64,000 bases of DNA from Adhaeribacter aquaticus DSM 16391 (GTDB taxonomy: Bacteria; Bacteroidota; Bacteroidia; Cytophagales; Hymenobacteraceae), in the NCBI RefSeq assembly GCF_000473365.1, contig NZ_KI421517.1, positions 4,228,296-4,292,295 of the forward strand, in the 5' to 3' direction. The notes below the pieces were generated by a model, which was given only the letters and a program-made list of their open reading frames with translations, searched no databases and had not been told where the DNA came from. Shown here piece by piece: positions 4,707 to 9,715 of this stretch (the stretch's first letter is position 1; the number at the start of each line of letters is the position of its first letter). The position numbers and the translations under genes are program-made.

Positions 4707-5663
4707 TTATTTTCTAGCTTTAAATTCTGATAATTCCTTTTGCTCCAACTTTACTATTTGCGGAGCTTTTGGTTGAGAAAGTGCTTCCCGCATATCTTGT
4801 TCTTCAATCTGCATATTAACATTTTTGGCATGATGTACCAATGCCTGAAATAACCGTCGCTGTTCTGGTCGTTGGGGCAGGTATTCCGGATGCCATTGTA
4901 CCCCCACCACATAAGGCAATTCACTGTTTTCTACCGCCTGAACTACACCATTAGCTTCTTTAGCAACAATTATAATATTTTGTCCAGGATCTTTTATAGC
5001 CTGGTGGTGAATGGCATTTACTTTTAATTTTTCGGCTCCTAAAATATTGGCTAATTTACTTTCTTTTTTAATTCTTATTTTTTTGACTGGAAATATACTG
5101 ATTGGGTTTGGTTCTTCCGAGTAAAATGAATTTATGTCCTGGTACAAGCTTCCGCCAAAATAAACATTCAATAATTGCGACCCCCGGCAGATGCCCATAA
5201 CCGGCAGATTTTTCTTAACTGCCTGATTCAGCAGTTGAAATTCCAGATGATCCCGGTTCCGGTCAATGGTCCATTTGATTTTACGGCTAAATAATTTTCG
5301 CACCAGAAATAACCCCGGATAATAAATCCAGCGAACGAACCGCCCAATTCTTCTCCAAAAAGAGATTTTTTTATTTTGAATGGTGCGGGCTAAATATTCC
5401 TCCACCACATTTTGCTTCTGATACGTATCTGGGTCCACATCAGCCCCTCCACCTATAATCAAGGCTTGTAACCCATCAGCAGTACGTGGCTTACCAGGCG
5501 TTATTCTTACTGGTTTCCCGCCTGCTAACCTTACTCCCAAAGCGGTAAAAAACCAGGCCACTCCGCCACCCTTATCAGGTCCGGTTATCCCTATTGTTGG
5601 CCGTTTCCGATTGATTTTTATTTGTTCCTTTAAGTAAGCCATGCAGAAATTTGTTTTATCCAT
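4707..5663 (-). CDS. Class I glutamine amidotransferase-like gamma-glutamyl hydrolase (PuuD-like)
   Basis: 318 aa. The PuuD-type family hydrolyses gamma-glutamyl amide bonds using a Cys-His-Glu triad. Seen: IIGGGADVDP at 69-78, nucleophile Cys159 in GICRGSQ, LYQDI, IHHQAIK, and His258/Glu260 in VQWHPE. Residues 101-124 form a basic and hydrophobic insert (FWRRIGRFVRWIYY) that could touch a membrane. Two starts are possible, 5663 or an ATG at 5642 (MAYLKEQ); both put it close to or overlapping the 3' end of the amidoligase gene, so the two are translationally linked. Pairing with an amidoligase suggests it opens or edits the bond its partner makes. The substrate is unknown. Confidence 0.85.
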   Translation of the reverse strand: MDKTNFCMAYLKEQIKINRKRPTIGITGPDKGGGVAWFFTALGVRLAGGKPVRITPGKPRTADGLQALIIGGGADVDPDTYQKQNVVEEYLARTIQNKKISFWRRIGRFVRWIYYPGLFLVRKLFSRKIKWTIDRNRDHLEFQLLNQAVKKNLPVMGICRGSQLLNVYFGGSLYQDINSFYSEEPNPISIFPVKKIRIKKESKLANILGAEKLKVNAIHHQAIKDPGQNIIIVAKEANGVVQAVENSELPYVVGVQWHPEYLPQRPEQRRLFQALVHHAKNVNMQIEEQDMREALSQPKAPQIVKLEQKELSEFKARK

Positions 5664-6634
5664 TTACCTTCAAAACCCAGAATGGTATCTTGCTTTAACC
5701 TAAAATAAGCTTCTTTTATAGCTTCTATTTTTTCAGGATTATGAGCTAATTCTTCTACCACCACCCAATTATTCCATTCCTGGGCTAAGGTCCAATCGGG
5801 TTTTGATATACTACTATTAGGTAAACGGTAATGAAAAGTTTTACGAGGTTTAACTTTTCCAACATCCTGAAATTGATTTACTTTATCTGGATTTATAGCG
5901 GCAAATAAAGGATACATGTCTATGGGTCGGTTTCTATCAGGATTATACCTATGGTAATCCGCTACCAATGTATCCAGATCCGGAGCATAATTTTGAGCTA
6001 AAATCAACTGGGCGTATTCTTCCGGAAAAGGATCAATAAACGGGCTCAGCTTACGGGCTAAATCAGTTTCGCCCACTTCCAACAACCAAGGATAAAGTAA
6101 GACAAATGCTTTTAAATAACTTATTATAGTTTCAGCATCAGTTGCAGGTAACTCAATATTTATATGCGTTCCAAAAGCATTAGTTGGAAAAGCTTCTGTT
6201 CCTTTGGCGTTGTGTTCGAACAGCGCCTGCCGGAGTTCTTCAAACTGAGCTATTTCGGTACACGGTACGGGTGGCGTAGCTATTTCATATGGAAATATTT
6301 TACCCACTATACCTTCCAAAGCAGCCTCAACACTATCCTCCAAGGTGCCCACTCCACATTTATATTCCTGCAAATTGATGTTGAACGAATCAAAAAATTT
6401 TATGTATTTCTTTTCGGTCAGTAAGGTTAAATCAAACTCAACGGAAAAGTTTCCAATACGGGTATCGCAAACTTTTTGGAGAAACCGATTTTCTTTTTCA
6501 ACTCTTCCTCCGTAGATGTCCAGAATTATTTTTACTATTTCATCTATTCCTAGATTAGCAAACTCTAATTCAAACCCTACTTTTCTTAGCTCTCCCTGCT
6601 CGTTGTATAGTACCGGCAATTGTTTAAACTCCAT
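5630..6634 (-). CDS. Amidoligase-family enzyme (COOH-NH2 ligase, glutamine synthetase fold)
   Basis: 334 aa. The family joins a carboxylate to an amine using ATP and is a distant relative of glutamine synthetase. Seen: VGFELEF at 19-25 (paired Glu metal ligands), VEFD at 65-68, FGTHINIE from 154 with His157, KTFHYRLPNSS near 265 (Arg likely contacts phosphate or substrate) and a helical C-terminus. Its 3' end overlaps the start of the glutamine-amidotransferase-like hydrolase by 34 bases (or ends 12 bases past the alternative start). Such ligase/hydrolase pairs were proposed by comparative genomics to make and trim small peptide-like metabolites or protein tags; which of these applies here is unknown. 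Confidence 0.82.
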   Translation of the reverse strand: MEFKQLPVLYNEQGELRKVGFELEFANLGIDEIVKIILDIYGGRVEKENRFLQKVCDTRIGNFSVEFDLTLLTEKKYIKFFDSFNINLQEYKCGVGTLEDSVEAALEGIVGKIFPYEIATPPVPCTEIAQFEELRQALFEHNAKGTEAFPTNAFGTHINIELPATDAETIISYLKAFVLLYPWLLEVGETDLARKLSPFIDPFPEEYAQLILAQNYAPDLDTLVADYHRYNPDRNRPIDMYPLFAAINPDKVNQFQDVGKVKPRKTFHYRLPNSSISKPDWTLAQEWNNWVVVEELAHNPEKIEAIKEAYFRLKQDTILGFEGKWIKQISAWLT

Positions 6635-6797
6635 ACCTTTTTATTTTAAATATCCATTATTGAAATAATGGTTTTTACTAAACGGCAAGAAGTTGAAGGC
6701 GTTACAGATTTAAACTGTAAACTTTTTCGGTATAACTACTTATTTATAAAAGTATTTTTATTTTGACCTGAATTAGGATAAGGTATAATAACAAAAT

Positions 6798-6829
6798 AAA
6801 AAAGGCTTACTGAACAGTAAGCCTTTTTT
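6798..6829 (-). terminator. Terminator of the acidic protein gene
   Basis: A perfect 13-bp stem AAAAAAGGCTTAC/GTAAGCCTTTTTT with a 6-base loop, 18 bases after the stop of the minus-strand gene at 6847. The flanking A/T runs let it work in either direction. Confidence 0.82.
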
Positions 6830-6846
6830 ATTAGTCAAGGTATAGA

Positions 6847-7230
6847 TTAGATATTTTCGTAACCGGAAACATTTTCGTTTGGCTTAACCTCTTTGCTGCC
6901 AAACTCCTGATCGCCACTTCTTATTCCATTAACAGCTCCATCCTCCCCGGCTTCATAGCTACCTTCAACTTCAAAACCAGGTCCTTGAGAAATAGATTCT
7001 ACACTATCCGGATCATTGGCACCATAACCGGTTGCCTCGTTACCGCCAATGTGTAAATTCTCTAACCTGTCCATTTGACCTTTTCTTTCCAGGTCGCCGT
7101 TTGGACCTACATTGCGCTTGGCACTTGGATCCGGTATATTGCCATTCGTTTGTTCCCTTTTATCTTTCTCGAAGATATTTTTGGTGCTACGTGTTTTATT
7201 TTCGTCGTCGTCGTCTTCAAATATTCCCAT
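6847..7230 (-). CDS. Hypothetical acidic, hydrophilic protein
   Basis: 127 aa, not recognised. It opens with MGIFEDDDDENK and is rich in Asp, Glu, Gly, Asn and Ser with almost no hydrophobic runs, so it is probably disordered and cytoplasmic. There is no signal peptide or membrane segment. It is followed by a strong terminator and preceded by another small minus-strand gene 75 bases away, so the two may share a transcript. Composition of this sort is seen in stress- or desiccation-related proteins, but no motif supports that here. Confidence 0.65.
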   Translation of the reverse strand: MGIFEDDDDENKTRSTKNIFEKDKREQTNGNIPDPSAKRNVGPNGDLERKGQMDRLENLHIGGNEATGYGANDPDSVESISQGPGFEVEGSYEAGEDGAVNGIRSGDQEFGSKEVKPNENVSGYENI

Positions 7231-8069: not shown

Positions 8070-8861
8070 TTATTCTCCCATGGGTTTGCCTATGGTAGCC
8101 AGAATACCACCATCTACATAAACAATTTGGCCATTTACAAAATTACTAGCCCGGGAAGCCAAAAAAACGGTAGCCCCTCCTAACTCATCCGGGTCGCCCC
8201 ATTTTCCGGCAGGTGTACGGTTAATAATAAATTCGTTAAAGGCATTGCCAGGCACCCGTAATGGCGCAGTCTGGCTGGTTGCAAAATAACCTGGCCCAAT
8301 ACCGTTTACCTGAATATTATACTTTGCCCATTCGGTGGCCATGTTTTTGGTAAGCATTTTTAAACCACCTTTGGCTGCAGCATAAGCACCTACGTTTTGC
8401 CGGCCAAGCTCACTCATCATAGAACAAATATTTATTATTTTACCGCCACCTCGTTCTATCATGCCTTTCACTACAGCCTGCGATACAATAAAGGGTGAAG
8501 TTAGGTCTACATCTATTACCTGTTGCCATTCAGCCAGTTCCATATCTACTAATGGAATCCGTTTTATTATGCCGGCGTTATTCACTAAAATATCAATAGG
8601 GCCTATTTCCTGTTCAATTCGGGCTACAGCTTCTCTTACCTGACCCTGGTTGGTTACATCGCAACGAAACCCGTGAACCCGCAGTCCGGCTTCTTGGTAT
8701 AGCTTTAGGGCCTCTTCTATTTTTTCCTGAGATGAATTACCGTTTATAACTAAAGTCGCCCCTGCTTCGCCTAATGCTCTGGCCATAGCCATTCCTAAAC
8801 CATGTGTAGCACCGGTTACCCAGGCAATTTTACCGGTTAAATCAAATTGTTTTAATACCAT
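8070..8861 (-). CDS. kduD: 2-dehydro-3-deoxy-D-gluconate 5-dehydrogenase (KduD-like SDR)
   Basis: 263 aa from the ATG at 8861 (MVLKQFDLTGKIAWVTGA); the frame runs on upstream into kduI but that part is antisense-like. A short-chain dehydrogenase: TGATHGLGMAMA cofactor motif, NNAG, Ser of the active site in ICSMMSE, YAAAKGG catalytic Tyr/Lys, and a C-terminal VNGQIVYVDGGI. KduD converts the diketo product of KduI to 2-keto-3-deoxygluconate in breakdown of unsaturated uronates from pectin or similar polysaccharides. It starts 11 bases after kduI, so the two form an operon; that context supports KduD over a generic SDR. Confidence 0.88.
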   Translation of the reverse strand: MVLKQFDLTGKIAWVTGATHGLGMAMARALGEAGATLVINGNSSQEKIEEALKLYQEAGLRVHGFRCDVTNQGQVREAVARIEQEIGPIDILVNNAGIIKRIPLVDMELAEWQQVIDVDLTSPFIVSQAVVKGMIERGGGKIINICSMMSELGRQNVGAYAAAKGGLKMLTKNMATEWAKYNIQVNGIGPGYFATSQTAPLRVPGNAFNEFIINRTPAGKWGDPDELGGATVFLASRASNFVNGQIVYVDGGILATIGKPMGE

Positions 8862-8872
8862 ATAACCGTACC

Positions 8873-9715
8873 TTAACGTAGTGTAGCAACTTTGCAAACA
8901 TCCATATCGCCATAATCCAGGTTTTCGCCGGCCATTCCCCATATAAAGGTATAGTTTGCCGTGCCAGAGCCCGAATGGATTGACCACGGTGGAGAAATTA
9001 CAGCCTGGTCATTCTGCATCCAGATATGGCGCGTTTCCTGTGGTTCTCCTAAAAAATGACAAACCCCCTGCTCTGCTGGCACCTCAAAATACAAATACAC
9101 CTCCATCCGGCGGTCGTGTACGTGGGCCGGCATGGTATTCCAGACACTGCCCGGGTGTAATTCGGTCATACCCATTTGCAGCTGGCAGGTTTCTACTACA
9201 CTATTCACTAATAATTTATTAATGGTACGGGCATTTGCAGTTTCCTGAGAACCTAATTGTACCCTTTCCGCCTGCTCTTGAGATACTTTTTTGGAAGGAT
9301 AAGCATGATGAGCCGGAGCTGAGTTTAAATAAAATTTGGCCGGATTCTGAGCATCTGCGCTGGCAAAGGTTACTTCCTGAGTTCCTTTTCCCAAATACAA
9401 AGCTTCTTTAAAATCCAGCTCATAAGCTACACCATCTGCCGTTACTGTACCTTTTCCGCCAATGTTAATGATGCCTAACTCGCGTCTTTCCAGAAAGTAA
9501 GGTGCCTTTAAGGGATCAATGGTTTCCAAGGTTAAAGTTTCTTTTACCGGTTTGGCACCACCCACTATAAACCTATCGTAATGCAGATAAGACAGGTTTA
9601 TTACATCAGCTTCAAAAACCGTTTCAATCAAAAAGTTACTTCTAAGGCTTTCTGTATCCATGGCTTTTGCTTCGCGCGGGCCAATGGCATGCCGGATTTC
9701 ATAGTTCATATTCAT
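8873..9715 (-). CDS. kduI: 5-dehydro-4-deoxy-D-glucuronate isomerase
   Basis: 280 aa, full length. KduI is a zinc cupin enzyme that isomerises 5-keto-4-deoxyuronate, the step before KduD. Seen: the N-terminal YEIRHAIGPREAKAMDT block, FLERRELGIINIGGKG, YLGKGTQEV, and the metal-site segment PAHVHDRRMEVYLYF with a later His in SPPWSIHSG. ATGs at 9715 and 9709 are both possible starts. No lyase, transporter or regulator for uronates lies nearby, so this pair stands alone. No clear TANNTTTG promoter was found upstream. Confidence 0.93.
   Translation of the reverse strand: MNMNYEIRHAIGPREAKAMDTESLRSNFLIETVFEADVINLSYLHYDRFIVGGAKPVKETLTLETIDPLKAPYFLERRELGIINIGGKGTVTADGVAYELDFKEALYLGKGTQEVTFASADAQNPAKFYLNSAPAHHAYPSKKVSQEQAERVQLGSQETANARTINKLLVNSVVETCQLQMGMTELHPGSVWNTMPAHVHDRRMEVYLYFEVPAEQGVCHFLGEPQETRHIWMQNDQAVISPPWSIHSGSGTANYTFIWGMAGENLDYGDMDVCKVATLR

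Follow-up and report, generated by a model that had tools for sequence, protein, structure and literature searches.

The Pfam description of the Amidoligase_2 family (PF12224) reportedly mentions a glutamine-amidotransferase (GAT)-like thiol peptidase as a partner. A gene neighbourhood composed of Amidoligase_2 and such a glutamine-amidotransferase-like thiol peptidase was reportedly described by Iyer et al. in 2009. That study is cited by other papers for amidoligase functions; in the literature that we searched, no characterised PF12224 enzyme was found. In aniline degradation, AtdA1 is a GS-like gamma-glutamylanilide synthase, and the GAT-like AtdA2 hydrolyses the adduct and so holds it at a tolerable level (PMC11335346), while PuuA is the gamma-glutamyl ligase of the Puu pathway (PMC9397018). 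The DNA analysed here (hereafter, the window) is a stretch of 64,000 nucleotides from Adhaeribacter aquaticus DSM 16391 that carries the following features:

5630..6634, minus strand: amidoligase ORF, 334 aa, Amidoligase_2 (PF12224), glutamine-synthetase-type fold
4707..5642, minus strand: Peptidase_C26/PuuD-type hydrolase, 311 aa from the probable ATG at 5642 (the longest ORF starts at 5663)
5630..5642, minus strand: gene overlap, 13 nt (34 nt if the ATG at 5663 is used)
5289..5360, minus strand: amphipathic basic-aromatic insert helix of the hydrolase, residues 95-118 (102-125 in the longest ORF), predicted membrane-surface anchor
6795..6832, minus strand: terminator-like hairpin, 17-bp stem followed by a T-rich tail (pattern match only)

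The window pair shares its ligase family, hydrolase type and gene adjacency with the Amidoligase_2/thiol-peptidase neighbourhood, to which it adds a membrane-type helix in the hydrolase (in Bacteroidota), a 13-nt overlap conserved in close relatives, and a near-absolute co-occurrence that includes unlinked cases. The Bacteroidota pair is a membrane-helix variant of this already described, uncharacterised pairing. AtdA1/AtdA2 and NpaA1/NpaA2 are similar in that a GS-fold glutamylating ligase lies beside an adduct-removing GAT-like hydrolase (PMC11335346), but their ligases are GS homologues by sequence and are accompanied by a dioxygenase, whereas the window ligase belongs to PF12224 and has no linked dioxygenase. 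PuuD and SpuA are among the solved structures nearest to the window hydrolase; compared with PuuA/PuuD and SpuA, however, the window shows no linked PuuB/PuuC-type enzymes, its ligase comes from another sequence family, and its hydrolase has an insert that PuuD-type enzymes do not possess. LUZ24-like and OM43 phage cassettes also place a PF12224 ligase near an amidotransferase-type gene, but their GATase is of the PF13522/GATase_6 type (class II), and the LUZ24-like cassette is larger. A phage origin of the window pair was rejected, since no phage record matched the ligase and PHROGs matched the hydrolase only, as a generic amidotransferase. A role in anti-phage defence was rejected as well, as PADLOC profiles matched neither protein.

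Fold and catalytic residues of the two enzymes

The amidoligase and the gamma-glutamyl hydrolase-type gene proposed in the first-pass annotation were both found on the minus strand where it had placed them. The ligase matched PF12224 with E=5.4e-56 and 190.7 bits (cut-off 22), covering positions 3-245 of the 245-position profile, and it was the only PF12224 match in a profile search of the source genome. In an alignment of 45 homologues, residues E22, E24, D68, E117, H157, N159, R234, R264, H268, R270 and E286 are invariant, while the FELEF and FGTHINIE motifs, the former annotated at first as EFELEF-type, are invariant or almost so; read as motifs, the FELEF Glu residues would correspond to metal ligands of glutamine synthetase (GS). 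A sequence search for solved relatives of the ligase returned none. Its structure model (pLDDT 87.9) resembles the GS catalytic domain: in VIA-align, the GS family accounted for all 50 best matches, GmaS and a 1-naphthylamine glutamylating enzyme among them, the top score being Z 12.9 over about 210 residues at an rmsd of 3.5 Å, and Foldseek ranked YbdK first, followed by GS and plant glutamate-cysteine ligase, though these matches were weak (best E=0.011). As modelled, the ligase has a GS/GCS-type fold, and its predicted activity is ATP-dependent amide ligation.

A second PF12224 clade in other genomes of the same order (L024-L031) has a helix-turn-helix-like segment at the N-terminus and, near the C-terminus, E-F-R versus H-Y-R in the window clade. 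At most of its loci, an ORF of 76-101 aa with no clear Pfam match adjoins the ligase gene, and a profile-profile alignment with the window ligase clade gave a partial match only. In Rufibacter roseus, the ligase (L017:4001-5004) is split into two overlapping ORFs beside an intact hydrolase, the result of a frameshift, decay or a sequencing error.

The hydrolase matched Peptidase_C26 (PF07722) with E=2e-42 and 145.9 bits (cut-off 20.5). It was the only strong C26 match in the source genome, in which five other matches lay at E 5e-9 or weaker. The triad Cys152-His251-Glu253, annotated at first as Cys159/His258/Glu260 in the numbering of the longest ORF, is intact and invariant in 43 sequences, as is the CRG-type active-site motif. 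A relationship to the PuuD family, for which a search had been suggested, was borne out in part: PuuD was the best NCBIfam match and is among the nearest structures, but the score against the equivalog model NF008471 was 64.1 bits, far below its cut-off of 266. Judged by sequence, the enzyme is related to PuuD but is not PuuD itself. By sequence, Lin1909, SpuA and PuuD are the closest proteins of solved structure, and the nearest folds of its model (pLDDT 85.8) are Lin1909, PuuD and SpuA, ranked before the GATases of GMP and CTP synthases. Cleavage of a gamma-glutamyl amide is its predicted activity.

These comparisons bear on a different reading, which we consider unlikely, namely that the pair is a two-subunit glutamine-dependent amidotransferase, in which the hydrolase would make ammonia from glutamine and the GS-fold ligase would amidate a carboxylate, as in MurT/GatD and CTP synthase. 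The triad is indeed the one found in class I GATases, and the GATases of GMP and CTP synthases match the hydrolase model too; however, the generic GATase profile scored only 59.4 bits, below the value for PF07722, and PuuD, SpuA and Lin1909 come first by both sequence and fold. In addition, GS-fold enzymes can use free amines or ammonia. Sequence and fold of the hydrolase thus lean towards a C26 enzyme rather than an amidotransferase subunit.

Both enzyme families commonly handle gamma-glutamyl amides, as exemplified by GS, PuuA, GmaS, PuuD and SpuA. Our main reading, to which we assign a probability of about 0.57, is that one enzyme of the pair makes a gamma-glutamyl-type amide and the other breaks it down, with the Bacteroidota hydrolase being held at the membrane. 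Such a cycle would resemble PuuA/PuuD or AtdA1/AtdA2 minus the oxidase that acts between the two steps. The GS-fold ligase would activate a carboxylate with ATP, and this would probably be the gamma-carboxyl group of glutamate; the activated group would then be joined to an amine. Acting in the opposite direction, the PuuD/SpuA-type cysteine hydrolase would cleave the resulting amide via a glutamyl-thioester and release the amine, which would either stop the adduct from building up to unsafe levels or terminate a modification. In Bacteroidota, an amphipathic helix would tether the hydrolase to the inner membrane face, where cleavage would take place.

Co-inheritance and neighbourhood of the pair

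Among 395 Bacteroidota genomes, the ligase was found in 31 and the hydrolase in 30, all of which lie within the 31 and have the two genes adjacent. A second survey, of the window's family, covered 200 genomes and found ligase and hydrolase in an identical set of 37. In the merged surveys, which include the genome of the window a single time, 66 of 67 genomes with the ligase also had the hydrolase; a hydrolase without the ligase was found in no genome of either survey. The sole exception (G277) has the ligase but only an ordinary, insert-less C26 enzyme elsewhere in the genome. The probability of such sharing under independence is below 1e-40, a figure that overstates the evidence owing to kinship of the genomes. 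The genes are adjacent in 64 of the 66 genomes that have both, and the two unlinked cases are more telling for the pairing than the independence odds, since both genes have been kept. In Pontibacter ummariensis (G668), they lie on different contigs, and the hydrolase (L073) is 66% identical and retains the insert; in the second such genome (G690), they are likewise on separate contigs. The unlinked pairs, L004/L073 (G574/G668) and G690, were apparently split by rearrangement. Distances in the ligase and hydrolase gene trees correlate with r=0.95 (permutation maximum 0.17), although four pairs of well-supported splits conflict between the trees.

The joint action of ligase and hydrolase, at first suggested by the gene overlap, is strongly supported by (i) the 66/67 co-occurrence, (ii) the retention of both genes when unlinked, and (iii) the correlation of tree distances. 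Conservation and adjacency in related genomes had been named as a check, and the genes turned out to be neighbours in relatives, with the catalytic residues in place. The pair was present in just one of eight genomes of the window's own genus, and its gain or loss is therefore frequent. Its compact, self-contained make-up and almost strict co-inheritance could open a way to a product of the PF12224 family.

The near 1:1 co-occurrence together with the gene overlap would also suit obligate subunits of an amidotransferase, but some ligases have no hydrolase on their replicon. The seven distinct plasmids from Alphaproteobacteria that were examined fall into three with the pair (SC52, Dinoroseobacter and Qingshengfaniella) and four on which, with the search covering plasmid replicons only, the ligase is present without the hydrolase. 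Given these four plasmids and the G277 genome, the ligase may act alone.

The first-pass annotation saw no pathway gene next to the pair, and this holds across genera: within 1.5-4 kb, no third gene common to the pair was found, and neighbours are shared only inside genera. In a single genus group of the wider phylum (L037-L045), most members have a Dabb (PF07876) gene next to the pair in convergent orientation, as a matter of local synteny only. The absence of a shared neighbour speaks against an amine-utilisation shuttle of the Puu type, in which an amine would be gamma-glutamylated, oxidised by enzymes encoded elsewhere and then deglutamylated. The Puu, Spu and Atd pathways do unite both activities (PMC9397018, PMC11335346), but neither an oxidase, dehydrogenase or dioxygenase, as expected of a Puu/Atd catabolic operon, nor a transporter or regulator is linked to the pair across genera within that distance, and we regard the shuttle as highly improbable.

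Insert helix of the hydrolase

The unusual basic-aromatic insert, a side remark of the first-pass annotation, proved to be real and is the most distinctive feature of the locus. It is a 24-residue helix rich in Arg, Lys, Phe, Trp and Tyr, located between the GGGAD and RDxxE motifs and modelled with modest confidence (pLDDT about 66-77). The 43 aligned ligase-paired hydrolases from Bacteroidota all have 51-62 residues between these motifs, and the 16 measurable unpaired Bacteroidota C26 enzymes all have 18-24; none of these 16 has the insert. It is also missing from the three paired alphaproteobacterial hydrolases (3/3), and is therefore not essential to the core function of the pair.

Of 22 hydrolases sampled, 21 have the insert as their most interface-seeking segment on the Wimley-White interface scale, and its net charge ranges from +2 to +10. 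In the simplest reading of these predictions, it is probably a peripheral membrane anchor. It might instead dock the hydrolase onto the ligase, a possibility that we consider rather unlikely though compatible with every catalytic reading of the pair. Docking would agree with the restriction of the insert to ligase-paired hydrolases among the Bacteroidota examined, but no other segment of the hydrolase is predicted to have so high an interface affinity, the insert is rich in aromatic residues and carries a net positive charge, and the alphaproteobacterial pairs manage without it. The anchor reading narrows the search for a substrate, as it suggests that the hydrolase acts at the membrane surface. 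A membrane-type helix would also be unexpected in the ammonia donor of an amidotransferase.

The helix bears as well on whether the pair could be a reversible tagging system, in which the ligase would add an amino acid to a protein side chain or to an amine-bearing lipid or envelope precursor, and the membrane-held hydrolase would remove it. A pair of opposing enzymes unaccompanied by pathway genes, and a membrane-type helix that within Bacteroidota occurs only in paired hydrolases, would be in line with such a role. However, no tag or substrate gene is linked to the pair, the helix is missing from the paired alphaproteobacterial hydrolases, and known GS-fold and PuuD-type enzymes act mostly on small molecules, which makes tagging quite improbable. 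A more specific version appears very improbable: at the inner membrane of Bacteroidota, the ligase would gamma-glutamylate a lipid or envelope precursor that bears an amine, and the helix-anchored hydrolase would take the group off again.

Gene overlap, start codon and flanking sequence

The overlap reported for the two genes exists, but its extent depends on the start codon of the hydrolase: it amounts to 34 nt for the longest ORF and probably to 13 nt in reality. The 34-nt overlap was rejected as a conserved start, as seven of 17 close relatives (L002, L003, L012, L014-L016 and L018) have no usable start codon at that position, where the codon is absent or a stop comes after it. All 17 relatives, and the window at 5642, have an ATG, GTG or TTG that gives an overlap of 13 nt (16 nt in L013); the hydrolase therefore probably comprises 311 aa. 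The overlap fits translational coupling of ligase and hydrolase but is no proof of it.

The terminator-like hairpin lies between the ligase and the upstream gene (6847-7230), so that the pair probably forms a transcription unit of its own; matches to the terminator-like pattern across the region were not above chance frequency. No Bacteroidota-type promoter was found near the 5' end of the ligase gene, the pattern likewise being not above chance in the window. Farther upstream, two adjacent ORFs on the minus strand (window positions 8070-9715) resemble the pectin/uronate breakdown enzymes KduD and KduI, as judged by eye from their translations.
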